A stretch of DNA of 64,000 bases from Neolewinella persica DSM 23188 (GTDB lineage: Bacteria > Bacteroidota > Bacteroidia > Chitinophagales > Saprospiraceae), in contig NZ_KB890428.1 of the NCBI RefSeq assembly GCF_000373105.1, positions 1 to 64,000 on the forward strand, given 5' to 3'. This document shows positions 3,391 through 27,902 of the stretch, piece by piece (position 1 is the first letter of the stretch; each line of letters opens with the position of its first letter). The notes beneath the pieces were generated by a model. The model was not told the origin of the DNA and ran no database searches. It saw nothing but the letters and a program-made list of their open reading frames with translations. The translations under genes and the position numbers were made by a program.

Positions 3391-3424
3391 TGTTATAAAT
3401 CAGTGGTTCTCCTGATTAACATCA
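3391..3424. promoter_or_regulatory. Composite CRP/FNR-type operator between USP-1 and USP-2
   Basis: Two dyads: TGTTataaATCA (3391-3402) and TGATtaacATCA (3413-3424), 10 bp apart, centres 22 bp apart. Flanking -7-like elements lie at equal distance on both sides: GATATTTG on the minus strand for USP-1 and CAACTTTG (3448-3455) on the plus strand for USP-2, each with TTTG starting 28 bp from the dyad edge. The right dyad is a full TGAT-N4-ATCA palindrome. Probably bidirectional. Confidence 0.7.
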
Positions 3425-3479
3425 TGGAATCTTGTCAGCTGTTTTCGCAACTTTGGTGCATCACCAAATGATCGTTACC

Positions 3480-4373
3480 ATGCATTCCATCAATTCCATT
3501 CTAGTCCCGGTAGACTTCTCTAAAGTTTCCGCAAATGCCTTTCGTTACGCCCTCCGGCTGGCCGATTCCTTAGACGCCAGTATCGACCTACTGCACGCCG
3601 TTCCGTCGGACGACGGCAGCCTGATTTCTATGTCGCTGGCCGTTCAGCAGGTCGATCTCGCCAAAGAAAAATTGGAGAAGTTCTTTACGGAAGGAGTAAC
3701 GGCAGTATCCGGACACCTGAAACATGTGCCGGCCATCAGCCCATACGTTAAAATCGGCGGAATCCGTGCCGCTATTCGTAAGCACGTTGAAGCTGAAGAC
3801 AATAACCTCATCGTAATGGGTACCCACAGTGAAACCAAGGACCTGGAGGGATTCTTCGGCACCAATACTTCGCAACTGGTCAATAAGGCCCCTTGCCCCG
3901 TCCTCGTCGTTCCGGAAGGTTTTGCCTTCCAGCCGCTACAATCGGTTTGCTATGCCACCGACCTGTCCCACCTCGATGCCTTCCAGGCCGGCCACCTGCT
4001 CAGGACCCTGCGGGTCTTCGAGCCACGTCTGGATTTCGTCCACGTCAAGACGGGGAAAGGACAAAAAACGAATTTCAATATGGACTTGCTGCGGGAGGTA
4101 TTTGATCGCCCTAACACGGGGCTGGATACCCGCTTTCACGTCCTTGAAGACGACGATGTAGCGGAAGAAATATTTGAATTTGCCGAAGAAACCAAGGCCG
4201 ATCTCGTAGTTATGCACCGCCCGCGCCACTCCTGGATGAGTCGCTTGTTTGGCAAAAGCAACACGCGTGATGCCGTGCTGGAAGCAACCGTGCCCCTCCT
4301 GATTCTGCCGCTGGAAAAGAAGGATGAGGAAAAAGCTTTGGCGGACGTGGTTGCTCAACAATACTCAAAGTAG
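3480..4373 (+). CDS. Universal stress protein, two UspA domains (USP-2)
   Basis: 297 aa from the ATG at 3480, chosen because the UspA fold starts here (NSILVPVDFSKVSANAF) and because the predicted promoter (3448-3455) lies downstream of the longer in-frame start at 3432. Domain 1 ends with GTHS-x9-GTN, the ATP-binding pattern with serine in place of the second glycine. Domain 2 has VMHRPRHSWMSRLFGKSNTR. It is transcribed divergently from USP-1 and is followed 183 bp later by the phosphoketolase gene, with an inverted repeat pair in the gap. Likely part of the oxygen/redox-controlled set through the operator at 3391-3424. Confidence 0.92.
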   Translation: MHSINSILVPVDFSKVSANAFRYALRLADSLDASIDLLHAVPSDDGSLISMSLAVQQVDLAKEKLEKFFTEGVTAVSGHLKHVPAISPYVKIGGIRAAIRKHVEAEDNNLIVMGTHSETKDLEGFFGTNTSQLVNKAPCPVLVVPEGFAFQPLQSVCYATDLSHLDAFQAGHLLRTLRVFEPRLDFVHVKTGKGQKTNFNMDLLREVFDRPNTGLDTRFHVLEDDDVAEEIFEFAEETKADLVVMHRPRHSWMSRLFGKSNTRDAVLEATVPLLILPLEKKDEEKALADVVAQQYSK

Positions 4374-4438
4374 TCCAGGTTTTCTGATCAGGTGCTTGTG
4401 TTGGATCTAGGTTCCTATGCAAGCGCCTGACGTTTTTA

Positions 4439-4515
4439 GGCGGGGTCGCAGGTGCAAAGGAGGGTGAAGAACGGTTAGTGCTCTTTTACCTTCTCCTTGC
4501 ACCCGCGGCCCCGCC
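4439..4515. repeat. Dispersed intergenic repeat A, inverted pair
   Basis: Forward unit at 4439-4462 (GGCGGGGTCGCAGGTGCAAA...) and inverted unit at 4493-4515 (...TTGCACCCGCGGCCCCGCC). The two arms can form a stem of about 23-26 bp around a 30-nt loop. The arms are themselves flanked by an outer inverted pair built on CTGATCAGGTG / CACCTGATCAAG (about 4384 and 4517). Not followed by a U-tract, so not an ordinary terminator. Same unit recurs at 13 other intergenic loci. Confidence 0.8.
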
Positions 4516-4556
4516 CACCTGATCAAGTTAATTGAACAAGAAACTATCGCCTGATT

Positions 4557-6914
4557 ATGAACCTGACGAAAGCACAACTCAATAGAATTAACGCTTATTG
4601 GCGTGCCGCCAATTACCTGTCAGTTGGGCAGATGTATTTGCGGGATAATCCCCTTCTACGTAGTCCCTTGCAACGCAAACACCTCAAATCCGTACTGTTA
4701 GGGCACTGGGGAACTGCGCCGGGGCAGAATTTTATCTACGTTCACCTGAACCAGGTGATTAAACGACACGAACTGGAGATGATCTACCTCTCCGGCCCGG
4801 GTCACGCAGGGCAAGCCATGATCAGTTGCGCGTACCTGGAAGGGACGTACTCGGAAGTCTACCCGGATTGTTCGCAGGACGAGGCGGGCATGAAGCAACT
4901 CTGCGCCCAGTTTTCCTTTCCCGGAGGGGTGTCGAGCCACGTATCTCCGGAATGCCCTGGCTCCATCCACGAAGGTGGGGAACTCGGCTATTCCCTGAGC
5001 CATGCTTTTGGTGCTGCTTTTGACAATCCCAACCTGATTGTCGCCTGTGTGATTGGCGATGGGGAAGCCGAAACCGGACCATTAGCCACCGCCTGGCACG
5101 GAAATAAATTTCTTAATCCGCAGACCGACGGCGTGGTCCTGCCCATTTTGCACCTGAACGGTTATAAAATTGCTAATCCCACGATACTCGCACGCATGGA
5201 AAGCGAGGAACTGCACCAGTTGCTGGAAGGTTATGGCTGGAAACCCTATTTCGTGGAGGGCCACGAGCCTGAAGCGATGCACCGGCTCATGGCGGAAACA
5301 CTCGAAACGGTCGTTGAGGAAATTAACGCCATCAAGGACCTGACTTATGATGAAGCCCCACCGAGAAGGCCCCATTGGCCAATGATCGTATTACGGTCAC
5401 CTAAAGGCTGGACGGGCCCGGTCGAAGTCGAGGGCGTACCCCTCGAAGGTACTTTTCGTGCCCACCAGGTCCCCATCAAGGTAGAGGATGACAACGAAGA
5501 GGCCGCGCTGCACCAACTCGAAACCTGGATGAAGAGCTACCGCCCCGAAGAACTGTTCGACGAGCGGGGGACTCTGCTTCCAGAATTAGCCGCACTTGCA
5601 CCTACCGGGAAATTCCGGATGTCGGCCAGCCCGCACGCCAACGGCGGGTTGCTCCTTAAGGAGTTGGTACTGCCCGACTTCCGGGATTACGGCATTGCTG
5701 TACCTGCTCCCGGCAGTATCCGGGCCGCAGACACGGAAGTTTTAGGCGGCTTTCTGCGGGACATCATTGTCCTGAATGAAGCGGAACGTAACTTCCGCAT
5801 CTTTGGCCCGGACGAAACGCTCTCCAACCGCCTCAAGGCCGTTTTCGAAGTCACGAACCGGCAATGGATGCTGCCCATCGAGGCAAACGATGAGTTTCTG
5901 GCCCCGGAGGGCAGGGTAGTGGAGATGCTCAGCGAGCACCAGTGCCAGGGCTGGCTGGAAGGCTACCTGCTAACTGGGCGCCACGGACTATTCAACAGCT
6001 ACGAAGCCTTTATCCACGTGGTGGATTCTATGTTCAACCAGCACGCCAAGTGGCTCAAGATCACGGCGGAGTTGCCCTGGCGTAAGCCGATTGCTTCGCT
6101 CAATTACCTATTGGTGTCCCACGTCTGGCAGCAGGCGCACAACGGCTTCACCCACCAGGACCCGGGTTTTATTGACCACGTCGTCAACAAAAAAGCTTCC
6201 GTCGTACGGGTGTACCTGCCGCCCGACGCTAATTGCCTGCTTTCCGTCTGGGATCATTGTCAGCGCAGCAAAGACTACGTCAACGTAGTCGTTGCCAGTA
6301 AGTACCAGGCGCTGCAGTGGCTTCCGATGGAAGCCGCGGCGGAGCATTGTACCCGCGGCATCGGTATTTGGGAATGGGCCAGCGGTTCACCGGACCGCGC
6401 ACCGGACGTTGTTATGGCCTGCTGCGGTGACGCGCCTACGCTGGAAACCCTGGCGGCCGTCTCGATCTTGCGTCAACGGTTGCCCGAACTGAACGTCCGG
6501 GTAATCAACGTCGTAGATCTGATGAAGCTTCAATCCGCCTCGACCCACCCCCATGGCCTTCCCGCTGAGGAGTTTGACGCCCTCTTTACGTTAGACAAGC
6601 CCATTATTTTTGCTTTCCACGGTTACCCGTGGCTCATTCACCGACTGCTGTATCGGCGCAGTAATCATAATAACCTGCACGTCCATGGCTATCAGGAAGA
6701 AGGGACCATTACGACTTATTTTGACATGAAGGTGCTCAACGAACTAGATCGTTTTCACCTTGTGCTGGCGGTGCTGAAGCGGTTGCCCGCACTTGGAAAA
6801 GAGGGAACGGCCCTGGCTAAGGAGATGGAGGGTAAGCTGACCGAGCATCATCGGTACATTCGGGAGCATGGGGTGGATATGCCGGAGGTTTTGGGATGGA
6901 AGTGGTCTGACTAA
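4557..6914 (+). CDS. xfp: Xylulose-5-phosphate/fructose-6-phosphate phosphoketolase
   Basis: 785 aa, the usual length for the family. It cleaves xylulose-5-P or fructose-6-P with phosphate to acetyl phosphate plus glyceraldehyde-3-P or erythrose-4-P, using thiamine diphosphate. XFP_N covers about residues 1-365 with [27 protein letters not shown] and the ThDP/Mg motif [19 protein letters not shown]. The central and C-terminal XFP domains follow ([38 protein letters not shown] with the catalytic-region histidines). Cytoplasmic. It lies downstream of USP-2 with no clear promoter of its own in the gap, so co-regulation with USP-2 is plausible. No acetate kinase or phosphotransacetylase is encoded in the window. 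Confidence 0.96.
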
Positions 6915-6956: not shown

Positions 6957-7466
6957 CTAAGCCCGAATGTCTCGTTGCCGAAGTTTCTTTTTCAGCAGGG
7001 TTCTGGCCGCAAATATCCGGCTCTTAACGGTGCCTGTCGGTACCTGAATCCTTAAGGCTATTTCCCGGTAGCTCATTCCCTGGAAGTGTAACAGAAATGC
7101 ACGACGATGAATTTTGGGTAATTGGCTAATAAGCGCATAAGCGTCCTCCTGCTCAAGAATGCGCTCTGCCGTGTTTGGAACCGAAGCTTCGAGCAGCCAA
7201 CCATCCGGCACCTGATTTTTGGCAATGATTCTTTCTCGCCGCTTCTTACGGCGGTAATCTGAGATAAAAGTGTTGCGGATGATCCGCTTCACCCATGCCT
7301 TGAAATTCGTACCATGTTGGAAACTATCTCGATTTTTAAACACCTGGTAACTGACTTCCTGAAGTAAGTCCTGTGCACGATCTACATCTCGGGTAAGCGA
7401 GAGGGCGAACGATTGAAAATCTGAATAGTAGATTCGATTAAGCGAGCTGATTTCTTCGATAGTCAT
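6957..7466 (-). CDS. ECF-type RNA polymerase sigma factor
   Basis: 169 aa from the ATG at 7466. A longer in-frame start exists at 7535, but the predicted promoter (7520-7527) would then lie inside the gene, so the shorter form starting MTIEEISSLNRIYYSDF is preferred. Region 2 covers about 10-80 (ALSLTRDVDRAQDLLQEV; NFKAWVKRIIRNTFISDYRR). Region 4 is near the C-terminus (LPKIHRRAFLLHFQGMSYRE, then VPTGTVKSRIFAARTLLKKK). No anti-sigma gene is adjacent. It sits convergent with the phosphoketolase gene and is divergent from the CBS gene. A composite operator and promoter upstream suggest it is a downstream effector of the CRP/FNR-type control. Confidence 0.88.
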   Translation of the reverse strand: MTIEEISSLNRIYYSDFQSFALSLTRDVDRAQDLLQEVSYQVFKNRDSFQHGTNFKAWVKRIIRNTFISDYRRKKRRERIIAKNQVPDGWLLEASVPNTAERILEQEDAYALISQLPKIHRRAFLLHFQGMSYREIALRIQVPTGTVKSRIFAARTLLKKKLRQRDIRA

Positions 7467-7519
7467 GGCGTGTTGTTGAGATAATGCTACAGAAAATGTG
7501 GTTGGTTTTAATTGTTTAT

Positions 7520-7527
7520 CAAAATTG
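7520..7527 (-). promoter_or_regulatory. -7 promoter element of the sigma factor gene
   Basis: Reads CAATTTTG on the minus strand, matching TAnnTTTG except for the first base. Its TTTG begins exactly 28 bp from the edge of the operator dyad at 7551. It decides the sigma factor start at 7466 rather than 7535. Confidence 0.55.
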
Positions 7528-7550
7528 AGGTACAATTTTATTATTGGTAC

Positions 7551-7584
7551 TGACCAAATTCAATTTTAAGCATGATTTATATCA
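7551..7584. promoter_or_regulatory. Composite CRP/FNR-type operator for the sigma factor gene
   Basis: TGACcaaaTTCA (7551-7562) and perfect TGATttatATCA (7573-7584), separated by 10 bp. The -7 element of the leftward sigma factor gene is 28 bp from the left edge. No matching TTTG lies at that distance on the right, so this pair appears to act leftwards. An extra TTGGT-N4-ACCAA palindrome (7544-7557) overlaps its left edge. Confidence 0.65.
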
Positions 7585-7627: not shown

Positions 7628-7661
7628 TGACCAGAATCACCATTCTCACTGATCCATGTCA
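7628..7661. promoter_or_regulatory. Composite CRP/FNR-type operator facing the CBS gene
   Basis: TGACcagaATCA (7628-7639) and TGATccatGTCA (7650-7661), separated by 10 bp; the arrangement as a whole is also palindromic. On the right, CATATTTG (7686-7693) gives TTTG 29 bp from the edge. No counterpart on the left. It therefore predicts a rightward transcript starting near 7700, about 285 nt before the CBS start codon. Confidence 0.62.
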
Positions 7662-7986: not shown

Positions 7987-8391
7987 ATGAATTTACTAGC
8001 TAAAATATCAACCCTGATGAGTACGGAACTCGTCACCGTGACCATTGATACACCCGTAGCCGTCGCATTGGGCTTGTTAAACAAGCATAATATCCACCAC
8101 TTGCCCGTCCTTGACCCGGAACGCAGATTAGTTGGCATGCTGAGTCACTCGGACTTTCTAAAATTGAATGACCGGGGGACGGGCCTGCACACGGTCAAAG
8201 AGATCATGACGCCTCACATTGCCAGCCTGGAACCGACAGACACGATCCGAACGGCTGCAAATCTATTCATGCTCAATAAATTTCACGCCCTACCGGTACA
8301 GGAGGGAGAAAAGTTAATCGGAATGCTGACAACACTGGATCTGATCCGGCTGATTGATGAAGAGGAGATCCGATTGGAGGACTATGTGTGA
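7987..8391 (+). CDS. CBS-domain pair protein
   Basis: 134 aa made of two CBS motifs and nothing else. CBS1 is about 7-60 (MSTELVTVTIDTPVAVALGL...RRLVGMLSHSDFLKL); CBS2 is about 73-130 (EIMTPHIASLEPTDTIRTA...EKLIGMLTTLDLIRLI). Stand-alone CBS pairs bind adenosine nucleotides (AMP, ATP, SAM, c-di-AMP in various members) and act as energy or nucleotide sensors. Cytoplasmic. The stop codon overlaps the operator used by the next gene (8389-8422). The ligand cannot be told from sequence. CBS pairs are frequent companions of USPs in hypoxia-type stress clusters. Confidence 0.88.
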   Translation: MNLLAKISTLMSTELVTVTIDTPVAVALGLLNKHNIHHLPVLDPERRLVGMLSHSDFLKLNDRGTGLHTVKEIMTPHIASLEPTDTIRTAANLFMLNKFHALPVQEGEKLIGMLTTLDLIRLIDEEEIRLEDYV

Positions 8392-8422
8392 TAAAGATCA
8401 ATTGTTTTGATGACCAATGCTA
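8389..8422. promoter_or_regulatory. Composite CRP/FNR-type operator for the OmpA-like gene
   Basis: Perfect TGATaaagATCA (8389-8400, overlapping the CBS stop codon) plus a degenerate partner TGACcaatGCTA (8411-8422), 10 bp apart. GTAGTTTG (8446-8453) places TTTG 28 bp from the right edge. The TTTG is part of a 13-bp palindrome TTTGTAATACAAA (8450-8462). The predicted transcript starts just before the lipoprotein start codon at 8476. Confidence 0.55.
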
Positions 8423-8475
8423 TTGACAAGAAGGCAGCTCCCGCCGTAGTTTGTAATACAAAACCACCTATGATT

Positions 8476-9384
8476 ATGCATAAATTTATTATTATCAGTT
8501 TCACCATTTTGGTGAGTCTTACCTCGTGTGTCAGCAAAAAGCAATACGATGAGTTACAGGCCAGCACTACGGCACGTCTTGCTCAGCAAGAGGAAACCAT
8601 AGTGAGGCACAACCAGGAAATTAATCGTTACGCTCAGCGCCTCGCCGATTGCGAGCGGCGTGAAGCCGTGGTACAAACCCAGGTGGAGAATGCCAATTCT
8701 CAGGTCCGGATTCGGGAGGAACAAATCGCCGATCTGAAAAAACAGCGCGATCAGCAGCTTACCCAGGTGGGTGACCTTACGGTATTAAGCCAAGGCGCTA
8801 ACCAGAATATTAACAATACGCTTAAGCAGTTGGAGACTAAGGACAAGTATATCCGCCTGCTCCAAAATGCCAAGTCCAAGGCGGATTCCATTAACCTTGC
8901 CCTGGCCATTAACCTCAAGAGTGTCCTCCGTGAAGGCATAGAGGACCAGGATGTTGAGATCAAGGTAGATAAGACTGTGGTCTACATCAACTTGTCCGAC
9001 AAGATGCTCTACAAAAGTGGGAGTTACGAAATCACCGAACGCGCCGGTGAAGTTCTGCAGAAAATTGCTACTATCGCTAAAAGCCGTCCTAGTCTGGACT
9101 TGATGGTGGAAGGTTACACGGATAACGTTAGAATTTCCAACAGCTGTATCAAGGACAATTGGGACCTCTCGGTTTTTCGTTCCACCTCTGTAGTCAAAGC
9201 CTTGCAAAATAACTACGGCATTGACCCCAACCGCCTTATTGCCTCCGGCCGTGGAGAGTATAACACCCTGGCCACCAATGATACGGCGGAGGGGCGTAGC
9301 ATCAACCGCCGTACGCGCATCATTCTATTACCTAAGCTGAATCAGTTCTATGACCTGCTTGATCCGACAAAGTTGCCGGAATAG
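8476..9384 (+). CDS. OmpA-family peptidoglycan-binding outer-membrane lipoprotein
   Basis: 302 aa from the ATG at 8476 (8470 is equally possible); the longer frame from 8407 begins before the predicted promoter. A lipoprotein signal ends in LVSLTSC, so the mature protein starts at Cys and is lipid-anchored. Residues about 25-140 are a charged, Gln/Glu-rich coiled coil (QQEETIVRHNQEINRYAQRL). The OmpA C-terminal domain occupies about 165-295 with DLMVEGYTDN, DNWDLSVFRSTSVVKAL and the arginine-rich GRSINRRTRI that contacts diaminopimelate. It probably tethers the outer membrane to peptidoglycan. It is placed under the composite operator at 8389. Confidence 0.9.
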   Translation: MHKFIIISFTILVSLTSCVSKKQYDELQASTTARLAQQEETIVRHNQEINRYAQRLADCERREAVVQTQVENANSQVRIREEQIADLKKQRDQQLTQVGDLTVLSQGANQNINNTLKQLETKDKYIRLLQNAKSKADSINLALAINLKSVLREGIEDQDVEIKVDKTVVYINLSDKMLYKSGSYEITERAGEVLQKIATIAKSRPSLDLMVEGYTDNVRISNSCIKDNWDLSVFRSTSVVKALQNNYGIDPNRLIASGRGEYNTLATNDTAEGRSINRRTRIILLPKLNQFYDLLDPTKLPE

Positions 9385-9606: not shown

Positions 9607-10809
9607 ATGCGTAGTACGCCAAAAAAAATGAGTGAGGAAGACAACCGCTGGCTAAAGGCTCTTTTTGAAATGGCCACGGATGGGATTGTGACGATTAGCC
9701 TGCAGGGTATCATTGAAAACGTTAACCTGGCCGTCTGTGAGCTATTCGGGTATAAAAGGGAAGAGTTGTGTGGTCAGAAGGTGAAAATGTTAATGGGGAA
9801 CCATGACCGAATGTACCACGATGAATACCTCGAACGGTACCAGCGTACCCGGGAACCTCACATCATTGGCATTGGCCGGGAAGTTACTGGCCGTCGAAAG
9901 AATGGGGAAGAATTCCCCTTGCGCCTGGCGATAAGCGAGGTTAAACTCGACGACCAGATCATTTATCTTGGTATGTTGCACGACCTGACCGATTATAAAC
10001 GAGCTCAGGAAAGGGTGGCGCAGCTCAACAGTGAACTGGAAACAAAGGTGCAAGACAGGACGGCCACGCTGCGCCGCAGAGAAAAGGAACTGCAACAAGC
10101 ACTCGGTAAGGAGCGAGAACTAAATGAGCTCAAGAGCCGCTTTCTGAGTATGGCCAGCCATGAGTTTAAAACTCCGTTGAGTACCATCCTCAGCTCGGTT
10201 GAGCTTATTGAGCATTACCGGGAAGCGCAACAGGAACGGAAGCGTGAAAAGCATATTGGTCGGATTAAGGATGCGGTAAACCAACTCATCGATGTACTGA
10301 ATGATTTTTTGTCTTTATCAAAGCTGGAACAAGGGAAGGTAGAAGTATCGCCCCGGGTGACCGACCTGCGGTCGATCATCTCAACCAGTGTGGAAAGCAG
10401 CGAGGGGCAGCTAAAGGAAGGCCAGCATGTGGTGCTTGATTTGGCCCCGGAACCTGGTCTTATTATGACGGACGCCAAGCTGTTGCGGCACGTGCTGGTC
10501 AACCTGATCTCGAACGCCGCTAAATATTCTTCGCCGGGAATGGGGATCACCATCGCCAGCGGGCGACGCGGGAAAGATTTTTTTATCAGTATTATTGATC
10601 AAGGTATCGGTATTCCCGCAGAAGATCAGGCTTATCTTTTTGATCGGTTTTTTCGCGCCCGTAACGTTGAAAACGTAAAAGGGACTGGACTGGGACTCAA
10701 TATTGTTAGCCATTATGTCCAGTTACTAGGGGGGAAGATCGAGTTTACGAGTGAGGTCGATTCGGGGTCGACTTTCACCATCGTGCTACCGGCAATAATT
10801 GATAAATAA
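9607..10809 (+). CDS. FixL-like PAS sensor histidine kinase
   Basis: 400 aa, no membrane segment, so cytoplasmic. A PAS domain (about 12-130), a coiled coil (about 130-175), HisKA with phospho-acceptor H185 (SMASHEFKTPLSTILSS) and an HATPase_c domain (NLISNAAKYSS; FDRFFRARN; GTGLGLNIV) follow in order. The PAS region YHDEYLERY...PHIIGIGREV aligns with rhizobial FixL: His71, Arg77, His85 and Arg91 correspond to haem ligand His200, Arg206, His214 and Arg220 of Bradyrhizobium FixL. That makes an O2-sensing haem PAS likely, though related non-haem PAS domains share part of this text. No response regulator is adjacent. No composite operator is visible upstream. Confidence 0.85.
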   Translation: MRSTPKKMSEEDNRWLKALFEMATDGIVTISLQGIIENVNLAVCELFGYKREELCGQKVKMLMGNHDRMYHDEYLERYQRTREPHIIGIGREVTGRRKNGEEFPLRLAISEVKLDDQIIYLGMLHDLTDYKRAQERVAQLNSELETKVQDRTATLRRREKELQQALGKERELNELKSRFLSMASHEFKTPLSTILSSVELIEHYREAQQERKREKHIGRIKDAVNQLIDVLNDFLSLSKLEQGKVEVSPRVTDLRSIISTSVESSEGQLKEGQHVVLDLAPEPGLIMTDAKLLRHVLVNLISNAAKYSSPGMGITIASGRRGKDFFISIIDQGIGIPAEDQAYLFDRFFRARNVENVKGTGLGLNIVSHYVQLLGGKIEFTSEVDSGSTFTIVLPAIIDK

Positions 10810-10949: not shown

Positions 10950-11744
10950 TTAATAACTATCCTGTAAAATAAGTATAGGGATCGTGGCTGACCCGGTAAC
11001 TCTGCGGGCTACCGAACCCGTTGCCTTGTTGCCCAGTAAATGTTCTGCGCGGTGGGTGACGACGACGATATCTGCAGCTGTCAGGTCCGCAAATCCTACT
11101 ACGGCATTCCCGACGGGGTGATGTTCATCGACCTGGTAATAGAAGCGATATTCGACCCCCGTCAATAACCTCGCATATGCCTTGTCGGGCATCGCCCGCT
11201 CGGTAGACTGCAAATAATGAAACAGCAGTAATTGGGTCCGCTCAGAATCCAGTAATTGGAGTAGAGGGGACAGTTGACGTAAATTTCTGGGACATTCCTT
11301 GTCGGCGGCCAGCATAAAACGGCGTGGATATTTTACCGGAGCATAACTGGGAACCGCCAATATCGGGATCCGGGTATCTTCCATCAGGGAAGTTGTGGTG
11401 CTTCCCCAGGGATCGTCGGGTTGGAAGTGTTCGCCCTGACACCCCATTACAACCAGGTCACAGTCTCCGTCGTCAATAACTCGTCTTAAGGTAGGAACAA
11501 TGGCTCCTTCATAGAGGTACGCAGCAGTCGTGATCCCCCGTTGCCCGATGCTTTCGGCCAGTTCAGTTAGCTGCTTTTCCAATTCGGCAGCAGACGCTGT
11601 GTTATCCTTTGAACCTGACTTTGATGGGTCGAGAACGTACACCAGGCTGATTTTCGAATTCATTACTAACGCGATTTCTTCGGCATAGGCCAGGGCGCGG
11701 TCAGCTGGTTTACTGAAATCGATGCCTACTAATATATGTTTCAT
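10950..11744 (-). CDS. Universal stress protein, two UspA domains (USP-3)
   Basis: 264 aa, the shortest of the seven. Domain 1 starts MKHILVGIDFSKPADRALAYA and contains GCQG-x9-GSTT, an exact match to the ATP-binding pattern G-x2-G-x9-G(S/T); it ends IPILAVPSYA. Domain 2 (about 140-264) is more divergent but ends VVVTHRAEHLLGNKATGSVA and IPILILQ. It follows USP-4 by 57 bp with no TGA-N6-TCA dyad in the gap, so it is most likely the second gene of a USP-4/USP-3 operon driven from the promoter near 12717. Of the seven it and USP-5 have the cleanest nucleotide-binding motif. Confidence 0.92.
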   Translation of the reverse strand: MKHILVGIDFSKPADRALAYAEEIALVMNSKISLVYVLDPSKSGSKDNTASAAELEKQLTELAESIGQRGITTAAYLYEGAIVPTLRRVIDDGDCDLVVMGCQGEHFQPDDPWGSTTTSLMEDTRIPILAVPSYAPVKYPRRFMLAADKECPRNLRQLSPLLQLLDSERTQLLLFHYLQSTERAMPDKAYARLLTGVEYRFYYQVDEHHPVGNAVVGFADLTAADIVVVTHRAEHLLGNKATGSVARRVTGSATIPILILQDSY

Positions 11745-11801: not shown

Positions 11802-12671
11802 TCAATCATCGTTGGCAGAAAAAGGGATGACCATCATCGGCACCTTCCCAACCTGAATAATTGATTTTAGATTTTTTTTGTCTAATAGGCGACTCCAAAA
11901 TCCCTGACGTTTGCCCCCGAGGACCAGCAGGTCAATCTGTTTGTCGTCCACGTATTGGGAAAGCTGATCGACAACATTCCCGGTGGGCAGCAGGTCGAAT
12001 TCATAACTAAAAGACGGAGCCTCTTTACCCGAGGTCAGCTCCATAAAGTCGTCTTCATTCTCCATTTCCTGCCGCCAGTCGGCTTTTTTGACGTGTACGA
12101 AGCGGACCTCGGGCTTCAATCTTTCGATGATACTCTTGGAAAACTGTCCGATACGGATGATCTCCTCCGCATCGTCAAAAGCGATCGCTATACGTTTGAC
12201 TACAATCTGGCTGTACCCTTTTGGAATCAGCATCACCGGACAGCCCCCTCGTAGGGCAACCGGTGTTGCCACGCTGCCGTATAAGCCTGGAGGATGTATG
12301 CCGGCTCCCGCACCAACTCCGCCCATGACAATAAAGGCGGTGGTGGCTTCCTTGCTTAATGACTTGATTTTGGTAGAGGCCATGCCTGAAAGGACGGACA
12401 GCCGTACTTCCGGAACAAAAGAGTTGGAGCCATGATTAGCTGAAAGTCCTGGATTTACGTTGGTCCTGGCAAACTGTGCAAGCCGATGGACAAGTTTCTC
12501 CTCGTCGCGCTTTTGTTCGGGGGTAGTTAAGCTATGCGCACCGCTTAAGACCAGGTCGGAAACGTGAACAATGCGGAGGTTGTAATTCATCATCTCCGCC
12601 AAATAGGTGCCGAATTTAGTGGCAATGGCAGCGGTTTCCGAAAAATCAACGGGTATAACGACATTTTTCAT
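11802..12671 (-). CDS. Universal stress protein, two UspA domains (USP-4)
   Basis: 289 aa from the ATG at 12671 (MKNVVIPVDFSETAAIATKFG). The longer start at 12716 falls within the predicted promoter, so it is rejected. Domain 1 ends with MGGVGAGAGIHPPGLYGSVA and CPVMLIPKGY; domain 2 ends LLVLGGKRQGFWSRLLDKKN and VPMMVIPF. The glycine loop is the MGGVGxG variant also found in USP-1, USP-6 and USP-7, which together form one subfamily distinct from USP-2, USP-3 and USP-5. First gene of an operon with USP-3, under the operator at 12745-12778. Confidence 0.92.
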   Translation of the reverse strand: MKNVVIPVDFSETAAIATKFGTYLAEMMNYNLRIVHVSDLVLSGAHSLTTPEQKRDEEKLVHRLAQFARTNVNPGLSANHGSNSFVPEVRLSVLSGMASTKIKSLSKEATTAFIVMGGVGAGAGIHPPGLYGSVATPVALRGGCPVMLIPKGYSQIVVKRIAIAFDDAEEIIRIGQFSKSIIERLKPEVRFVHVKKADWRQEMENEDDFMELTSGKEAPSFSYEFDLLPTGNVVDQLSQYVDDKQIDLLVLGGKRQGFWSRLLDKKNLKSIIQVGKVPMMVIPFSANDD

Positions 12672-12713
12672 CAGGGACAAATTTATGTAGTGAAATATCT
12701 CCACTAGCTTCTC

Positions 12714-12721
12714 CAAAGATC
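12714..12721 (-). promoter_or_regulatory. -7 promoter element of the USP-4/USP-3 operon
   Basis: Reads GATCTTTG on the minus strand (TTTG exact, A conserved). TTTG begins 28 bp from the operator edge at 12745. A nearly identical GATCTTTA stands at the same distance from the kinase operator at 20855. Confidence 0.5.
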
Positions 12722-12744: not shown

Positions 12745-12778
12745 TGACTTAGATCAGTATCTTCCTTGATCTTAGTCA
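12745..12778. promoter_or_regulatory. Composite CRP/FNR-type operator upstream of USP-4
   Basis: TGACttagATCA (12745-12756) and TGATcttaGTCA (12767-12778), 10 bp apart. The two dyads are mirror images, so the whole 36-bp block (12744-12779) is an inverted repeat with 13-bp arms and one mismatch. It could be misread as a terminator of the DUF6544 gene, but no U-tract follows on either strand. Confidence 0.68.
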
Positions 12779-17992: not shown

Positions 17993-18026
17993 TGATAAAA
18001 GTCAGTGGGAGGATTGATTGCAATCA
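17993..18026. promoter_or_regulatory. Composite CRP/FNR-type operator between SDR and cupin genes
   Basis: TGATaaaaGTCA (17993-18004) and perfect TGATtgcaATCA (18015-18026), 10 bp apart. Symmetric promoters: TAATTTTG leftward (28 bp) and TAATTTCA rightward (18050-18057, its TTTG position also 28 bp). Likely bidirectional. Confidence 0.72.
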
Positions 18027-18077: not shown

Positions 18078-18401
18078 ATGGACAATCAATCAGCTTATCC
18101 CACGGGCACTATTAAAAGCGTATTGCGGAAAATGAAGCAATCTTCAGGCCCCGTAACCGAAGAATTGCATGCCGTCGACGGTCTTTCTGTCATGGTGATT
18201 GGCCTTAACAGAGGGGAGCTTCTTGCTGATCACACAACCGACGTAAAAACCAGATTGATTGTACTTGACGGCTGTGTGCTCTACAATGATCCCATAGATA
18301 CGTTTCCGCTTTTTGATTATGATGAACATGAAATCCCCATCGGGGTAGTTCATTCTCTAACGGCTAATCGAAAAAGTATTTGTTTGCTGATCAAGGGATA
18401 G
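18078..18401 (+). CDS. Small cupin-fold protein
   Basis: 107 aa. The pattern GLNRGELLADHTTDVKTRLI followed by LDGCVLYNDP, DYDEHEIPIGVVHSLTANRK fits a single-domain cupin: a half-motif with His at the first metal position and a second His in VVHSL. The usual EGxxxF glycine-rich strand is degenerate, so metal binding is uncertain. Small stand-alone cupins of this size often serve as ligand or metal sensors or as isomerases. It is divergent from the SDR and shares its operator. It ends 22 bp before the converging KilA-N gene. Confidence 0.65.
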   Translation: MDNQSAYPTGTIKSVLRKMKQSSGPVTEELHAVDGLSVMVIGLNRGELLADHTTDVKTRLIVLDGCVLYNDPIDTFPLFDYDEHEIPIGVVHSLTANRKSICLLIKG

Positions 18402-19251: not shown

Positions 19252-20280
19252 TTAATTTGATGTTTCTTGATCGTATTCTTTTAATATTTCAACGTATTTA
19301 TGGTATAATTCATAGTGACGATTAAGCTGGTCTAGCAGAGTATCCGCGTGCGCTTCAATAGGTAAATTATCTATTTTGATCGCCGTTACTTTCAGACGGA
19401 CGTTTGCACGATAGCACTTGTAAAAATTGAATAGCCGCTCGTCCTCTTTCGTTACCATCGTGCGGTTTCCAGCCTGATAGCTGGTCGCGAAGCGTTGCGC
19501 CAGATCAGGTCGTCCGAAGGCTTCCAGGTCAACGCACAGAAAAGCAACCTCATCCAATACGTCAACTTTTCGAAAATCATCGTTGAATTCGATACAATCA
19601 AAAATAATCGGTTTGTCGTTTTCCAGAAAAATATTGCCTGCGTGCAGGTCTCCGTGTCCATCTACAGTAAAACCTAATATTCGCCGATAGTGGAATCTTT
19701 GATGGTGCCGACGCAGGAAGGACCTGGCTACTTTCAGGCTGTCCATAATTTCATCCATTTTACTTGTCCCAATGTGCCGCGTTAGTTCCTCCGAATAGTT
19801 GGCGATGTCACTAAAATCGTCCAGTGCTTTTATCGGGTTGAACAACGCTTTATCTGGTATAGAATCTTGATGAAATGCGGACAGTTTGTCAGCAATTGAG
19901 TCCATATGTTCTGGTTGGACCCTTTCATCTTTTAGCATCCTGGTCATTTCCCAATTGTGGGCAACTCGCTTCATTTTGATGGCAAAATCGATGGAGTCGA
20001 ACTGGTAGGCCCCAAATTCAAGCCCGCCTTCAGTTGCGTTTATAGCCACTACATCCTCGTATAGATCAGGGGCTAGCCGACGGTTAAGCATTAGCTCCCG
20101 TTCACAATAGAATTTTCGTTTAGCCAGCGTGGAAAAATCCAGAAAAGAGAAGAGTACGTCTTTCTTCATTTTATACACATTACCCGACGTCAAAAGCAGC
20201 CAGGAAATATGCGTTTCAATGAGCTCGGCGTCCTGCAGCAACGGATTATTCAGCAGTAATTCAATTTGTTGTTGGTTCAT
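19252..20280 (-). CDS. Aminoglycoside-phosphotransferase-fold kinase (COG2187-like)
   Basis: 342 aa. The catalytic loop DGHGDLHAGNIFLEN with the metal segment PIIFDCIEFND identifies the APH/choline kinase fold, and the N-terminal EQIELLLNNPLLQDAELIETHISWLLLT is typical of the COG2187 group. In many bacteria this group is fused to an AAA kinase domain as a bifunctional protein of about 500 residues. Here the ATP-binding part is a separate gene that overlaps its start by 20 bp. Substrate unknown; drug resistance is not implied. Second gene of the operon driven from about 20827. Confidence 0.82.
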   Translation of the reverse strand: MNQQQIELLLNNPLLQDAELIETHISWLLLTSGNVYKMKKDVLFSFLDFSTLAKRKFYCERELMLNRRLAPDLYEDVVAINATEGGLEFGAYQFDSIDFAIKMKRVAHNWEMTRMLKDERVQPEHMDSIADKLSAFHQDSIPDKALFNPIKALDDFSDIANYSEELTRHIGTSKMDEIMDSLKVARSFLRRHHQRFHYRRILGFTVDGHGDLHAGNIFLENDKPIIFDCIEFNDDFRKVDVLDEVAFLCVDLEAFGRPDLAQRFATSYQAGNRTMVTKEDERLFNFYKCYRANVRLKVTAIKIDNLPIEAHADTLLDQLNRHYELYHKYVEILKEYDQETSN

Positions 20281-20779
20281 GATTGATGAATTTTGCAGCC
20301 GTATCCACCAACGTTTCGAGCGAAGCCGTGTCGGTTTTTAAGTTCAGGTGATCCCCGCTTAAAGGCTCATAAAGCTTTTTGATCTTATTATACACGGACA
20401 TATCGGCTTCACTATATTGACGTTGTTTAGAAACTCGTTCTTTTATGGTTGCTTCCCCGGTTTGTAGTTCAATCCATTTGATGGGGCACTCCAGTCGTTG
20501 GGCTAAATCGGTATAAGCCTGGCGTAAATCTTTCAGATAGAGGGTTGCGTCTACGATTACGGTCGAACCGGCCTTCAGGAAGCCTTCGGTGCGTTCTTCC
20601 AGTTTTCTGTAGACCTTCGCTTTGTCTTCTGGTGAATACTTACCACGTAGCCCTATTTCCGCGCGGATAACGTCACTGTTCAAATGTTTTGCTCCCAGGT
20701 GAAGGGCCAATGCACGCGAAAAAGTAGATTTCCCCGTTCCCGGTAATCCGACTACCATAACTAATGCAGGAGCGACCAT
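20261..20779 (-). CDS. P-loop kinase (AAA/COG0645-like), partner of the APH-fold gene
   Basis: 172 aa. Walker A GLPGTGKSTFSRALA (11-25) is followed by LNSDVIRAEIGLRG and a polynucleotide-kinase-like body (TVIVDATYLKDLRQ style, seen here as STVIVDATLYLKDLRQ). Equivalent to the ATPase half of bifunctional COG2187/COG0645 proteins, but encoded separately and in the opposite order, with a 20-bp overlap. That suggests a fission or a re-ordered pair with translational coupling. Promoter GATCTTTA (minus, 20831-20824) is 28 bp from the operator at 20855. Confidence 0.8.
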   Translation of the reverse strand: MVAPALVMVVGLPGTGKSTFSRALALHLGAKHLNSDVIRAEIGLRGKYSPEDKAKVYRKLEERTEGFLKAGSTVIVDATLYLKDLRQAYTDLAQRLECPIKWIELQTGEATIKERVSKQRQYSEADMSVYNKIKKLYEPLSGDHLNLKTDTASLETLVDTAAKFINHEPTTN

Positions 20780-20854: not shown

Positions 20855-20888
20855 TGATGTAAATCAACTTTGGGGTTAATCTTTATCA
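20855..20888. promoter_or_regulatory. Composite CRP/FNR-type operator for the kinase pair
   Basis: Perfect TGATgtaaATCA (20855-20866) and TAATctttATCA (20877-20888, one mismatch), 10 bp apart. A -7-like GATCTTTA lies 28 bp to the left, toward the kinase genes; nothing fits on the right. Confidence 0.6.
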
Positions 20889-20918: not shown

Positions 20919-20921
20919 TAC

Positions 20922-20955
20922 TGAGTTAACTCATCACTGGCATTGATAACAATCA
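20922..20955. promoter_or_regulatory. Composite CRP/FNR-type operator for USP-5
   Basis: TGAGttaaCTCA (20922-20933) and TGATaacaATCA (20944-20955), both perfect palindromes, 10 bp apart. The position 28 bp to the right holds CACCTTGT (20979-20986), a weak -7 match. The USP-5 start codon is at 21009. Confidence 0.65.
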
Positions 20956-21008
20956 TGGGAATGGTCCTGTATTTTCCGCACCTTGTTCCCGGTTAAAATC
21001 CTTTGTCT

Positions 21009-21878
21009 ATGAATGCCGTAAAAAAAATCCTCGTCCCCGTGGACTTCAGTGACTTGGCCGCAGCGTCCTACCACTACGCGCTCCATCTCGCTGATGAACT
21101 CTCCGCTGCCATTCATCTTCTATACAGCAAGCCTTCCGTAAGGGGAGCAACCACTCATCCTGAAATATTTCAAGAGATGAATGGGGAATTATTTCGGAGG
21201 GCAGAAGAAAGGCTGGAATTGTTTCGGGAGGAGGGGATAGCAGTTACAAGAGCTGATCTGAAGAATTTGCCCACCGTTACGCGGGCAGTTAGTATTTTAA
21301 ACTTCAAGGACAGCATCAGGCAAGAAAGCGAGGAACACAAGGTTGATCTTATCCTGATCGGTACTCACGGTATACATGATAATTGGGACCGACTGTTCGG
21401 GACGAACGCGGCGTCTTTAGTTGGGAAAATTGAGACACCGATACTGATAATTCCAAATGGGGCGGAATTCCAGCCGTTCAAATCAATCTGCTTCGCCACC
21501 GATTTTGGCGACCACGACATTAAGAAAGCAACGTACCTGCATAAGGTGTTCTATCCTTTTTTGCCCCGGATGTATTTTCTACACGTGCAAAACCCGGGAG
21601 CGCCCGAACCACCGGAAGGCATCGATTTTTTTCGGCATGCGTATGAGCGACCCCGGCAAGTTATGGAAGCAACCTTCACTGTAGTCAATAACGAGGACGT
21701 TACTGACGGAATATTCGGGTATCTTCAAACCCAACCCCACGACTTACTGGTCATGGTAAAGCCCAATAGAGGATGGTGGAGCCGTCTTTTGTCCCACAGT
21801 GAAACCAGGGAGACTGCTGGCATAACTAATATCCCGTTGTTAATTCTGGGAGAGCGTGACTGGGAGATTCAGGATTAG
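21009..21878 (+). CDS. Universal stress protein, two UspA domains (USP-5)
   Basis: 289 aa from the ATG at 21009 (an in-frame TTG lies 6 bp upstream). Domain 1 starts KKILVPVDFSDLAAASYHYAL and carries GTHG-x9-GTNAASL, an exact ATP-binding motif; it ends TPILIIPNG. Domain 2 (about 155-289) ends LLVMVKPNRGWWSRLLSHSE, close in style to USP-2 (HRPRHSWMSRLFGKSN), so USP-2 and USP-5 look like a paralogous pair. Followed 51 bp later by an OsmC gene with no dyad between, suggesting a two-gene operon. Confidence 0.93.
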   Translation: MNAVKKILVPVDFSDLAAASYHYALHLADELSAAIHLLYSKPSVRGATTHPEIFQEMNGELFRRAEERLELFREEGIAVTRADLKNLPTVTRAVSILNFKDSIRQESEEHKVDLILIGTHGIHDNWDRLFGTNAASLVGKIETPILIIPNGAEFQPFKSICFATDFGDHDIKKATYLHKVFYPFLPRMYFLHVQNPGAPEPPEGIDFFRHAYERPRQVMEATFTVVNNEDVTDGIFGYLQTQPHDLLVMVKPNRGWWSRLLSHSETRETAGITNIPLLILGERDWEIQD

Positions 21879-21929: not shown

Positions 21930-22328
21930 ATGCAGTACCTCCTTTCGGGAAACATCAACCCAAACCGGGAAGCAACTTTTACCATTAAGAAGAGAGAAAT
22001 AGTGTTTGGTGTCCGTAGTGACCAGGACGAGCTTCCAAATCCCGCTGAACTTTTACTAGGTGCTTTCGCGGCCTGTTGCCTGAAGAATGTCCAGCGTTTT
22101 TCTGAGCTTCTTGGCTTTGATTATACCGACGCAAGCATTGAAGTTATCGGTGAGCGACAGGAAAAGCCGACAAAAATAGTGGCCATTCGATACGTTATTA
22201 AGCTCAACAGTGTGGACGAAAAGCTGAACCTGAAGCTACTGCACAAAAACCTGCAAAAATTCGGAACGATCTATAATACGCTCAAAGATGTCTGTGATGT
22301 TTCCGGAGAACTTGTGTTATCGTCATGA
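21930..22328 (+). CDS. OsmC-family peroxiredoxin-like protein
   Basis: 132 aa, OsmC/Ohr fold. The first redox cysteine is in GAFAACCLKNVQRF and the second near the C-terminus in DVCDVSGEL. PNPAELLLGAFAACC is the family hallmark. Members reduce organic hydroperoxides with dihydrolipoyl or other dithiol donors. Cytoplasmic dimer by homology. The YhfA/OsmC-like subgroup is more likely than Ohr, but the distinction is not certain from sequence. Co-transcribed with USP-5, adding an oxidative-stress arm to the cluster. Confidence 0.87.
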   Translation: MQYLLSGNINPNREATFTIKKREIVFGVRSDQDELPNPAELLLGAFAACCLKNVQRFSELLGFDYTDASIEVIGERQEKPTKIVAIRYVIKLNSVDEKLNLKLLHKNLQKFGTIYNTLKDVCDVSGELVLSS

Positions 22329-25245: not shown

Positions 25246-25281
25246 ACCCGCGCTACTGGGCCGCTTGCTCCTCAGTTTATT

Positions 25282-25384: not shown

Positions 25385-25412
25385 AGAGATGAAAGCGCAA
25401 AGTATTTACCCG

Positions 25413-26018
25413 TTAATTGCCCTCTGAAGCCCCGATGCGCTCTTCTGCCAGGGTACTGCCCAAATGAGTTTTACCCGGTAACTCTGGCTCGTCACTATAG
25501 TCTAATGGCGCGAAACCAAGGGCATAGTTCAACCAAATTACTGCACGCTTGATGTCGAGCTCAGTGTTGAATAGCTCCGAAGCGGAACTGATCCCATCAA
25601 CCTCATCGTCCAGTATTGCGCTCCCGGAGCCTGATGTAGTAATGGCGAGTAGGGGGACCTTACCCCCAAGCGAATCCCTGAAGGCATGAACCATGCCGGG
25701 CGGACGCCCAATCTCCCAGGTGTGCAGCAGGATGCAGGCGTCCACCTCCCTTTCTGCCTGGTAGGTTGCGGCAGTCGTAAGGTCAATCACGTTAATGTAC
25801 ACTGGCTTATCTCGAAATGCCCTCACAATTCCAGCCGTGAGGCTGTCTTTATAGGCACTTTGCTGGGTTACGATCAGCAAATGCTTTTCCGACGAAGGTT
25901 CGTTTACTTCGTAAGGGGTTATCACTCCCATAGAGTAGGTGCCGAGGTACCAAAAACTGAATGCGGTAAACATAGCAATTAGGACGAGACCAAACTTGGT
26001 GCTTTTTCTAAGTTTCAT
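25413..26018 (-). CDS. Uncharacterised membrane-anchored protein, flavodoxin-like region
   Basis: 201 aa. One N-terminal hydrophobic anchor (about 8-30, FGLVLIAMFTAFSFWYLGTY). The exposed part alternates strands and helices (KHLLIVTQQSAYKDSLTAGI; VDACILLHTWEIGRPPG; VPLLAITTSGSGS) in a way that recalls a flavodoxin-like Rossmann layout, but I see no clear FMN loop. Not assigned to a family. It starts 44 bp after the USP-6 stop codon, so it is probably the third gene of the USP-7/USP-6 operon. It is distinct from its neighbours in not being a USP. Confidence 0.5.
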   Translation of the reverse strand: MKLRKSTKFGLVLIAMFTAFSFWYLGTYSMGVITPYEVNEPSSEKHLLIVTQQSAYKDSLTAGIVRAFRDKPVYINVIDLTTAATYQAEREVDACILLHTWEIGRPPGMVHAFRDSLGGKVPLLAITTSGSGSAILDDEVDGISSASELFNTELDIKRAVIWLNYALGFAPLDYSDEPELPGKTHLGSTLAEERIGASEGN

Positions 26019-26062
26019 GGCGGTTAAGGCTTTTCTATCAGCCCGGTTTTGGGCCGTTGGAT

Positions 26063-26929
26063 TCAGCGATTTGGAGGTAGCGGTACAATTAGTAAGGGGA
26101 CTTCGCAGGCTTTCATGATCGGCTTCACATTACTTCTTGTAAAGAGACCGTCCCACAGGTTCCTGACCTGGTGTCCGAGTACCAACATCCCGATTTCTTT
26201 TTTCTGTGCATAGTCGAGCAATCGACGGGGAACGGGCCCGGGAGGCAAAGCGTCGTAGCCAAAAGTATAACTTGGAAAACCGGGCCCCAACGCCAGGTCT
26301 AAAAACCTGTCGTCGTTATCCCATTCGGGTGATGCTTCGCCTCCTGCCACATGAACGAACCTCACCTCAGGCCGTAAGACCTTAATGATTCGCCGGACGA
26401 TCGTGCTCATGTGCTCGATTTCCCCGGCGTCCCCAAAGGCTATGGCCATACTTAAAACTGATGGATAGCCGTAGCCCGGAGGAAGTAAAATTGTCGGACA
26501 ACTACCCTGAAGGATAACGGCACTGGCAACTCCACCAAAAAGCCCCGGTGGGTTCTCCCGTTTACCTGAACCCACGCCACCCATTACTACTAATTCGGTA
26601 TCCTCTTCTTCACTTAATTCGCGGATTACGGGAGCGGGAAAACCTTCAAATACCTGCCTATTTATGGACGGTAGCGTTTCCAGGTTGCCCTGGAACGTTG
26701 CCAGGACTGGATGGGTGTGACGTTGGACGAAAAGCGCCAACTCGTTCTCCAGCCTTTCTTTTTCTTTCCGCAATGCTCCGGTTGAAACTGTTTGGGCAAA
26801 ACTGAATTTGGCGTCAAATACGTGGACGACCCGGAGGTCCAGGTCCATTACTTCAGCCAGGTAGGTCCCGAAGCGTAGTGCCGTGGCAGAAGTGTCGGAA
26901 AAGTCTACTGGTACTAGTATGTTTTTCAT
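26063..26929 (-). CDS. Universal stress protein, two UspA domains (USP-6)
   Basis: 288 aa. Domain 1 starts MKNILVPVDFSDTSATALRFG and contains MGGVGSGKRENPPGLFGGVA with CPTILLPPGYG; domain 2 ends MLVLGHQVRNLWDGLFTRSN and VPLLIVPLP. Same subfamily as USP-1, USP-4 and USP-7; its closest match by eye is USP-4 (PPGLFG versus PPGLYG). The final loop residue is GG rather than GS, so the nucleotide motif is slightly altered. Second gene of the operon, 23 bp after USP-7. Confidence 0.92.
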   Translation of the reverse strand: MKNILVPVDFSDTSATALRFGTYLAEVMDLDLRVVHVFDAKFSFAQTVSTGALRKEKERLENELALFVQRHTHPVLATFQGNLETLPSINRQVFEGFPAPVIRELSEEEDTELVVMGGVGSGKRENPPGLFGGVASAVILQGSCPTILLPPGYGYPSVLSMAIAFGDAGEIEHMSTIVRRIIKVLRPEVRFVHVAGGEASPEWDNDDRFLDLALGPGFPSYTFGYDALPPGPVPRRLLDYAQKKEIGMLVLGHQVRNLWDGLFTRSNVKPIMKACEVPLLIVPLPPNR

Positions 26930-26952
26930 GCTTATGGTTGTTGTTCTAATTA

Positions 26953-27816
26953 TTATTCAGTTAATGGTATGATTAGCATGGGGATACCACAGGACCCAAT
27001 AATGTCGGGGATTTCGGACCGTACCAGCAGGTTCATCAGGAATCCTCGTTTATGCCGGCCCAGGATTAGTAAATCAACTTTTTGTTCCAGCGAATAGTCG
27101 ATCAGCACGTTCGCAACGTCTCCCTCGGGTAACAGATCGAAGTCAACGGCATAATCAGGGAAGTTATTCTTGACCATTTTGCGGAAAAGCTCTAACTCCA
27201 TCATCTCTTCACTCAGGTCGTCCCGATACGCGACGTGCGTGAAGTGCATTGCCGGAGCAAGTGCTTTTCGCAGGAATTTGGATTTATCACTTAATTCAAC
27301 CAGTGTATTCACTTCATCAAAAGCAATGGCTGCATGCGTTATATTAGGGACGCCCGAATTCTGGGGAATCAGTAGCAGCGGACACTCCGCGCCCATAGCG
27401 ACCCCTTTGGCAACGCTACCGAAAACCGGCGTTACCCGGCTTGGAATGCCTGAACCGACGCCTCCCATAACGACCAGCGCGGTATCCTCTCGTTTACTGA
27501 GCTTCAACACCTGACCAATGGCCGTGCCTACTACTTCTCTGCACTTGATGAAGGGCAGCGTTTCGTCGTCGGCGTGTATTCCCGTAAAGGTCATTTGATC
27601 CGCATGAAGGCTGACGAATTTTTCGAGGCGCTCCCTGACCCGTGCCCGGATCCTGGCACTTCCTTTCTTGACTACAAAGGCCTCGTCGCCGTCGTAACCG
27701 TCGTGTACGTGAACTACTTCAAGGTCATAACCGGTAACGTCGGCCAGGTAGCAACCATATCGCAAGGCATCAGCCGAAGTACTGGAAAAATCTGTTGGAA
27801 CAATTATTTTATACAT
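26953..27816 (-). CDS. Universal stress protein, two UspA domains (USP-7)
   Basis: 287 aa from the ATG at 27816 (MYKIIVPTDFSSTSADALRYG); an in-frame ATG 9 bp earlier would leave only a few nt of leader. Domain 1 has MGGVGSGIPSRVTPVFGSVA and CPLLLIPQN; domain 2 ends LLILGRHKRGFLMNLLVRSE and IPMLIIPL. It is closest to USP-1 (shared VVHVHDGYxGxE and KGxxRIRARVRERL style), suggesting local duplication. First gene of a USP-7/USP-6/201-aa operon under the operator at 27869-27902, which it shares with the divergent metal ATPase. Confidence 0.92.
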   Translation of the reverse strand: MYKIIVPTDFSSTSADALRYGCYLADVTGYDLEVVHVHDGYDGDEAFVVKKGSARIRARVRERLEKFVSLHADQMTFTGIHADDETLPFIKCREVVGTAIGQVLKLSKREDTALVVMGGVGSGIPSRVTPVFGSVAKGVAMGAECPLLLIPQNSGVPNITHAAIAFDEVNTLVELSDKSKFLRKALAPAMHFTHVAYRDDLSEEMMELELFRKMVKNNFPDYAVDFDLLPEGDVANVLIDYSLEQKVDLLILGRHKRGFLMNLLVRSEIPDIIGSCGIPMLIIPLTE

Positions 27817-27868
27817 GGTACCCATGATTTGTTTCCTTAAAATTCAGTAAGAAAGCTTTAAAAAGCAG

Positions 27869-27902
27869 TGATGGAAATCATGGAGAATAGTGATTCTAGT
27901 CT
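27869..27902. promoter_or_regulatory. Composite CRP/FNR-type operator between USP-7 and the P1B ATPase
   Basis: Perfect TGATggaaATCA (27869-27880) and TGATtctaGTCT (27891-27902, one mismatch), 10 bp apart. Rightward, TATCTTTG (27927-27934) is an exact -7 element with TTTG 29 bp away. Leftward, GAATTTTA is 28 bp away (weaker). Confidence 0.7.

Follow-up and report, generated by a model that had tools for sequence, protein, structure and literature searches.

Paired TGA-N6-TCA operators with 22-bp spacing in Neolewinella persica and their probable reading by a receiver-CRP fusion protein

A 64,000-nt window of the Neolewinella persica DSM 23188 genome carries nine 34-bp sites, each composed of two TGA-N6-TCA dyads with centres 22 bp apart. 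We think it likely that these sites serve as operators for a two-component system that responds to oxygen and is made up of a FixL-like histidine kinase and a protein that fuses a receiver to a CRP-type body (REC-Crp). The sites, their spacing, the geometry of the -7 element, the anatomy of the regulator, the gene order around it and its co-occurrence with the pairs were all observed. An earlier sequence-only reading of the window had assigned the sites to an undescribed stress regulon controlled by a CRP/FNR-type protein. The broad lines of this interpretation were right, although the protein that reads the sites is probably of a different type and the regulon probably extends beyond stress genes.

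All nine sites of the earlier list are present (Table 1): both dyads are perfect at five of them, one mismatch occurs at three, and two mismatches occur at one. Performing 100 dinucleotide shuffles of the window, we obtained a mean of 0.09 pairs with at most one mismatch (maximum 1) versus the eight observed. At 22 bp, a scan of spacings from 14 to 44 bp gave five perfect pairs and three with one mismatch. No other spacing competes: none gave more than a single perfect pair (at 27 bp) or more than two pairs with one mismatch (at 44 bp). Allowing two mismatches raises the number at 22 bp to 11; the two pairs absent from the earlier list, at 10178 and 53804, are both inside open reading frames (ORFs) and look like chance matches. 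The sites had been called intergenic. Site 8389 is partly coding, as its first TGA is the stop codon (8389-8391) of the CBS gene 7987-8391. This stop codon serves also as the first half-site of an operator.

The pairs are not confined to the window. Genome-wide, N. persica has 37 pairs with at most one mismatch versus 9 for a reversed-pattern control. Nine pairs are perfect: five in the window, three on contig C30 and one on contig C46, the last adjoining universal stress protein (USP) genes. We counted 736 perfect 22-bp pairs in 198 genomes of the order, against 19 control matches. We also scanned spacings of 12-60 bp at 80 named REC-Crp loci, which are the best 80 of 583 relatives. These loci are nearly all titled Bacteroidota (Saprospiraceae, Chitinophagaceae, Dyadobacter, Hymenobacter, Pontibacter, Daejeonella and others), while L130 and L150 carry titles of proteobacterial metagenome-assembled genomes (MAGs). 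Perfect pairs numbered 70 at 22 bp, 13 at 23 bp and at most 3 elsewhere, and 65 of the 70 are mostly intergenic, though ORFs fill 88% of that DNA. We rejected the idea that 23-bp pairs are noise, finding 121 such sites in 70 of the 198 genomes versus 20 control matches; the N. persica genome has none. The spacing, described earlier as invariant, is predominantly 22 bp, and 23 bp is a real minority outside this genome. The motif is short and degenerate, and the genome list with up to one mismatch has its control background of 9, which might suggest chance or repeat-derived similarity. The probability of this is negligible, because it is contradicted by the shuffles, the reversed-pattern controls and the other spacings, and also by independent genomes.

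The pairs also keep a fixed distance to the TTTG of a -7 element. Offsets are counted beyond the pair edge, so that offset 27 is the 28th base and offset 28 the 29th. Exact TTTG is found in eight of the 18 directions from the window sites (offset 27 in six, offset 28 in two), which reproduces the eight promoter directions reported before; the other 48 offsets between 10 and 59 gave four in all. At the flanks of perfect pairs in the named loci, TTTG occupies offset 27 in 46 of 140 cases, compared with a mean of 1.8 over 66 offsets, peak included. At REC-Crp loci, a perfect dyad with TTTG at offset 27 occurs 99 times versus 6-15 times for each other offset from 20 to 35. A second dyad with at most one mismatch stands at 22 bp from 60 of these 99, at 23 bp from 13, and at any other spacing from no more than five. 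The promoter matrix, built only from promoters selected for TTTG at offset 27, shows TA at the position expected for TAnnTTTG and no clear TTG box. The distance between activator site and -7 element is fixed, as in class II promoters, and the sequence supports a class-II-like position, predicted to lie near -41.5, for the proximal dyad, with the two dyads about two turns apart as originally proposed. Single dyads with TTTG at offset 27 are also seen at L195 9491 and L196 10663, in genomes that have REC-Crp and no perfect pairs.

The 73 of 99 TTTG-register dyads having a partner at 22 or 23 bp would also fit recognition of the whole 34-bp element in some other manner, e.g. by a tetramer or a repressor, with no class II activation by two dimers. 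We regard this as very unlikely. The fixed TTTG distance, the preceding TA and the lack of a clear TTG box, albeit in promoters selected for TTTG, are what class II activation predicts. Moreover, three-dyad arrays with an exact 22-bp period occur six times in 104 loci, versus at most three times for any other period from 14 to 30 bp, and fit repeated dimers.

A CRP/FNR homologue had been expected from the motif. A profile search of the genome found seven HTH_Crp proteins, including the REC-Crp on C30; the recognition helix is Q-type in four of the other six. Just past the window (C16:68152, L012) lies one CRP-type gene whose helix is Q-type, and C11 encodes a similar protein. The gene order on C30 is REC-Crp, PAS kinase, perfect pair, CBS protein, DsbD_2 protein, FixH, FixG-type and FixP-type proteins, a fused COX1-FixO protein, one-mismatch pair, heavy-metal P-type ATPase, radical SAM protein, perfect pair and Mrp-like NTPase. 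By resemblance, the ATPase would be CcoI and the radical SAM protein HemN. The pairs at 58266, 65298 and 69163, perfect or with one mismatch, thus flank the CBS, cbb3, ATPase and radical SAM genes, and the third perfect pair on C30 (26365) is 29 kb off, between cation ATPase and sulfatase genes. Genes of the cbb3, ccoI and hemN type are typical targets of FixK/ANR-type regulators.

By Pfam, the C30 protein is a fusion of Response_reg, cNMP_binding and HTH_Crp, and so combines the cNMP_binding fold with the Crp-type helix-turn-helix (HTH) that define the CRP/FNR family. The AlphaFold model of a homologue (L081; pLDDT 81.7) matched CRP/FNR structures in Foldseek, with low whole-chain TM-scores of about 0.3/0.45; apart from the CRP fold, the model contributed little. 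Across 20 aligned homologues, D11, D54 and K106 of the receiver are invariant, as in a response regulator, and the recognition helix retains E315 and R319. A Glu and an Arg of this helix read TGA in CRP/FNR proteins. Another Arg and Glu hold cAMP in CRP. These are replaced in the N. persica REC-Crp, and 19 of the 20 homologues have no Arg in the four residues before the conserved Ala (L055 has one), suggesting that the receiver has taken over from the ligand. The N-terminus is occupied by the receiver and shows no FNR-type cysteine cluster, and the output part is neither the LuxR/GerE-type HTH of FixJ nor the NarL-type domain of DosR/DevR. The candidate is of the CRP/FNR type, as had been proposed, but in all likelihood it is neither a CRP nor an FNR of the classical kind.

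The PAS domain of the adjacent kinase matched Bradyrhizobium japonicum FixL with an E-value of 2.3e-29, and the axial His and the FG-loop Arg of FixL are aligned. The proximal (axial) His and this Arg have established roles in the heme PAS domain of FixL. At the sequence level, the C30 kinase has the features of a FixL, with a predicted heme PAS that carries the His and Arg, plus HisKA/HATPase. Because the best candidate is a receiver-CRP fusion beside a FixL-like kinase, the switch is likely to be phosphorylation rather than a bound ligand.

We checked how REC-Crp and the pairs are distributed among relatives, counting REC-Crp as present at E<=1e-40. It was found in 126 of the 198 order genomes. 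The mean number of perfect pairs was 4.9 in these, versus 1.6 in the 72 genomes without it (Mann-Whitney p 1.3e-12, uncorrected for kinship; the genomes are related, so p-values overstate independence). At the named loci, pairs precede kinase, ccoI-like, ccoNO, hemN-like, CBS and USP genes, and a kinase is encoded directly upstream of REC-Crp on the same strand in 68 of 80. Four of five genus relatives retain REC-Crp and pairs, again by hemN-like, ccoI-like, ccoNO, USP, phosphoketolase and ECF/OsmC genes (the genus scan has overlapping loci, and its pairs are not summable). The congener G143 gave no REC-Crp match, no perfect pair and no CcoNO match, and retains two ordinary CRP paralogues plus a weak third match; it represents a natural loss of REC-Crp together with the pairs. 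Of the four relatives that retain REC-Crp, two likewise gave no CcoNO match. Judging from these sequences, the paired architecture is widespread in Bacteroidota.

We called a genome FNR-type when a match had E<=1e-44, a query start <=17 and an open frame <300 aa, a definition that diverged or truncated genes escape (e.g. the 199-aa match at a contig edge in G146). On this basis 51 of the 198 genomes are FNR-type, and an N-terminal cysteine cluster was seen in all eight sequences inspected. A stand-alone FNR/CRP protein, itself sensing oxygen or a ligand, might then read the operators, REC-Crp being linked only incidentally. The 34 genomes with an FNR-type protein only (mean 2.44 pairs) speak for it, as 19 of them have two or more pairs and 15 at most one, and these 19 are among the 26 genomes that have two or more pairs but no REC-Crp. 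Eight of ten stand-alone loci inspected also have a pair with at most one mismatch within the 2-3.6 kb examined, not always upstream of the gene, and one of the six other HTH_Crp matches of N. persica has an E..SR helix. However, we consider this explanation unlikely for N. persica, which has no FNR-type match at E<=1e-30 and whose other CRP-type proteins mostly carry the Q-type helix; G143 keeps two such proteins and no perfect pair. The 109 genomes having REC-Crp without an FNR-type protein average 5.04 pairs (0.87 in the 38 genomes with neither), and REC-Crp genes are where the pairs cluster. Two sensor types seem to share the operator, and the operator may outlive the sensor. This argues against the receiver alone setting the 22-bp distance. 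We set aside a receiver-specific cause since FNR-type-only genomes show the same spacing, and a contact between CRP bodies is at least as likely.

Several observations weigh against a FixL-like kinase and REC-Crp as the readers of the pairs. The E..SR helix mentioned above belongs to another CRP-type protein of the same genome (C8:104931). No perfect pair was found in nine of the 126 REC-Crp genomes, and a pair with up to one mismatch is missing from 18 of the 80 named loci, some of which are short. Conversely, 26 of the 72 genomes without REC-Crp have two or more perfect pairs, including seven with neither regulator, five of which are <90% complete. No partner with at most one mismatch stands at 22 or 23 bp from 26 of the 99 dyads having TTTG at offset 27, and some regions of G060 and G021 have single dyads in this register without a good partner; thus, pairing is not universal. 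G143 has no CcoNO match, yet G068 and G192, which also lack one, keep REC-Crp and pairs, so cbb3 is not an obligatory target. Finally, the FixL signature is present in only some of the 68 upstream kinases. We rejected the notion that all partner kinases are FixL, because a regular expression for the signature matched 16 of 68 and the aligned table contains PAS domains of several types. Non-FixL PAS domains are also picked up in the H/R column of this table, and some of its rows are misaligned, so neither kinase figure is a clean count.

Modelled on the sequence anatomy, binding, phosphotransfer, heme and oxygen sensing, activation and cooperativity would proceed as follows. When oxygen falls, the FixL-like heme-PAS histidine kinase would phosphorylate the receiver of REC-Crp, and two REC-Crp dimers would occupy the two dyads. 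The proximal dimer would sit immediately before a TAnnTTTG promoter in which no -33 TTG box is visible and would activate it by recruiting RNA polymerase, and the distal dimer near -64 would bind cooperatively. Predicted targets are the cbb3 oxidase genes, the ccoI-like ATPase, the hemN-like gene and, in many relatives, the kinase gene itself. A DosR-like stress set of USP, CBS, cation ATPase and ECF sigma genes would also respond, with phosphoketolase and OsmC probably in the same operons. FixL, FixJ and FixK would in effect be condensed into two proteins. "Stress regulon" therefore appears too narrow a term: the regulon looks like a microoxic respiration core (cbb3 oxidase, ccoI-like ATPase, hemN-like gene) to which the USP/CBS island adds a stress arm. 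A broader proposal, for and against which we see the balance as even, is a Bacteroidota-wide code. Microoxic promoters would be written as dyad, 22 bp, dyad and TAnnTTTG, and read by a kinase (FixL-type in N. persica) with a fused FixJ/FixK-like protein. While sensors were exchanged (heme-PAS kinase, other kinases, FNR-type protein), the operator geometry would have persisted, and the conserved core of the switch would be a cooperative contact between dimers 22 bp apart.

Table 1. Paired operators and neighbouring genes in the window, and three-dyad arrays at other loci.
Feature	Position	Strand	Remark
USP gene	2326..3186	-	Pfam Usp
Paired operator, 1 mismatch	3391..3424		flanked by divergent USP genes; TTTG at offset 27 in both directions
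USP gene	3432..4373	+	Usp match 3495-3914; listed ORF start upstream of likely ATG
Phosphoketolase (XFP)	4557..6914	+	possibly in USP operon
ECF-type sigma factor	6957..7535	-	Pfam search
Perfect paired operator	7551..7584		left TTTG at offset 27, towards ECF sigma ORF
Perfect paired operator	7628..7661		right TTTG at offset 28; upstream of CBS gene
CBS-domain protein	7987..8391	+	similar gene adjoins C30 regulator locus
Paired operator, 2 mismatches	8389..8422		right TTTG at offset 27, towards OmpA-domain gene
OmpA-domain protein	8407..9384	+	
Second FixL-like PAS histidine kinase	9607..10809	+	inside USP island
USP gene	10950..11744	-	
USP gene	11802..12716	-	
Perfect paired operator	12745..12778		left TTTG at offset 27, towards USP gene 11802-12716
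Short-chain dehydrogenase	17170..17931	-	
Perfect paired operator	17993..18026		short-chain dehydrogenase gene left (TTTG at offset 27), 107-aa ORF right
107-aa ORF	18078..18401	+	called cupin by the sequence-only reading
APH-like protein	19252..20280	-	weak match, below Pfam cut-off
AAA_33 ATPase/kinase	20261..20779	-	
Paired operator, 1 mismatch	20855..20888		left TTTA at offset 27, towards AAA_33/APH-like gene pair
Perfect paired operator	20922..20955		upstream of USP gene 21003; no exact TTTG
USP gene	21003..21878	+	
OsmC-like protein	21930..22328	+	
USP gene	26063..26929	-	
USP gene	26953..27825	-	
Paired operator, 1 mismatch	27869..27902		USP gene left (TTTA), P-type ATPase gene right (TTTG at offset 28)
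P-type cation ATPase	27969..30164	+	
Three-dyad arrays, 22-bp period	L085 3113, L094 7628, L129 11060, L158 8670, L197 3795, L237 4017		

Some of the genes in Table 1 need comment. The listed start of the ECF sigma ORF is upstream of the TTTG of site 7551, so the true start must be further in. The 107-aa ORF gave no Pfam match at E<=0.001. The AAA_33 and APH-like pair (19252-20779), with a paired operator before it, resembles a mycobacterial DosR-regulon gene in make-up. The window kinase has no receiver gene beside it and is a close paralogue of the C30 kinase; it retains the H...R stretch which in that paralogue aligns to FixL, and it may feed the same REC-Crp.

We found no description of this paired-operator system in the literature searched, with subscription journals and preprints outside the search; in this respect "undescribed" still holds. 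In Flavobacterium, a transcriptome reports strong cbb3 induction at low oxygen, and Fnr or Crp is named 0 times in its main text (PMC9723704). Oxygen control in free-living Bacteroidota seems little described. The present analysis offers a candidate for the regulator, together with an operator grammar and a list of targets for which many genomes can be searched; here the geometry of the operator appears to be better conserved than its sensor.

In the same bacterial family, CRP/FNR homologues near MalR, tied to a MalR motif, are described for a Saprospiraceae MAG, in a paper whose main text uses "receiver" and "tandem" 0 times (PMC8510549). DosR/DevR of mycobacteria is a hypoxia two-component regulator whose sites are closely packed and bound cooperatively, with the proximal site covering the -35 element; to bind cooperatively to a second site close by, DevR needs a part of the protein other than its DNA-binding domain (PMC3029386). 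DevR thus provides a precedent for cooperative paired binding by REC-Crp. Both would be hypoxia-type two-component regulators on closely packed sites, as predicted here; however, DevR is a NarL-type response regulator, whereas here a CRP/FNR output domain goes with the TGA-N6-TCA motif. The DosR regulon includes USP, CBS, cation ATPase and AAA/APH protein genes, similar to the gene set here.

One-component regulators of the FNR/ANR type use TGA-N6-TCA-type sites at the class II position. The site type is the same here, and an FNR-type protein seems to accompany this paired operator elsewhere in the order. Unlike FNR, REC-Crp has a receiver instead of the N-terminal cysteine cluster, and the sites are mostly fixed pairs. 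The targets of FixK include cbb3, fixGHI-type genes and hemN, and FixJ consists of a receiver and a LuxR-type HTH. The FixL-FixJ-FixK cascade of Alphaproteobacteria comprises a heme-PAS kinase, a receiver and a CRP/FNR-type activator (PMC4999443). The same three elements, and candidate targets of these kinds, recur in N. persica. However, FixJ and FixK are separate proteins in a transcriptional cascade, whereas here the receiver and the CRP part are in one protein, and unlike in the FixK system each operator is a 22-bp pair that precedes a Bacteroidota -7 element.

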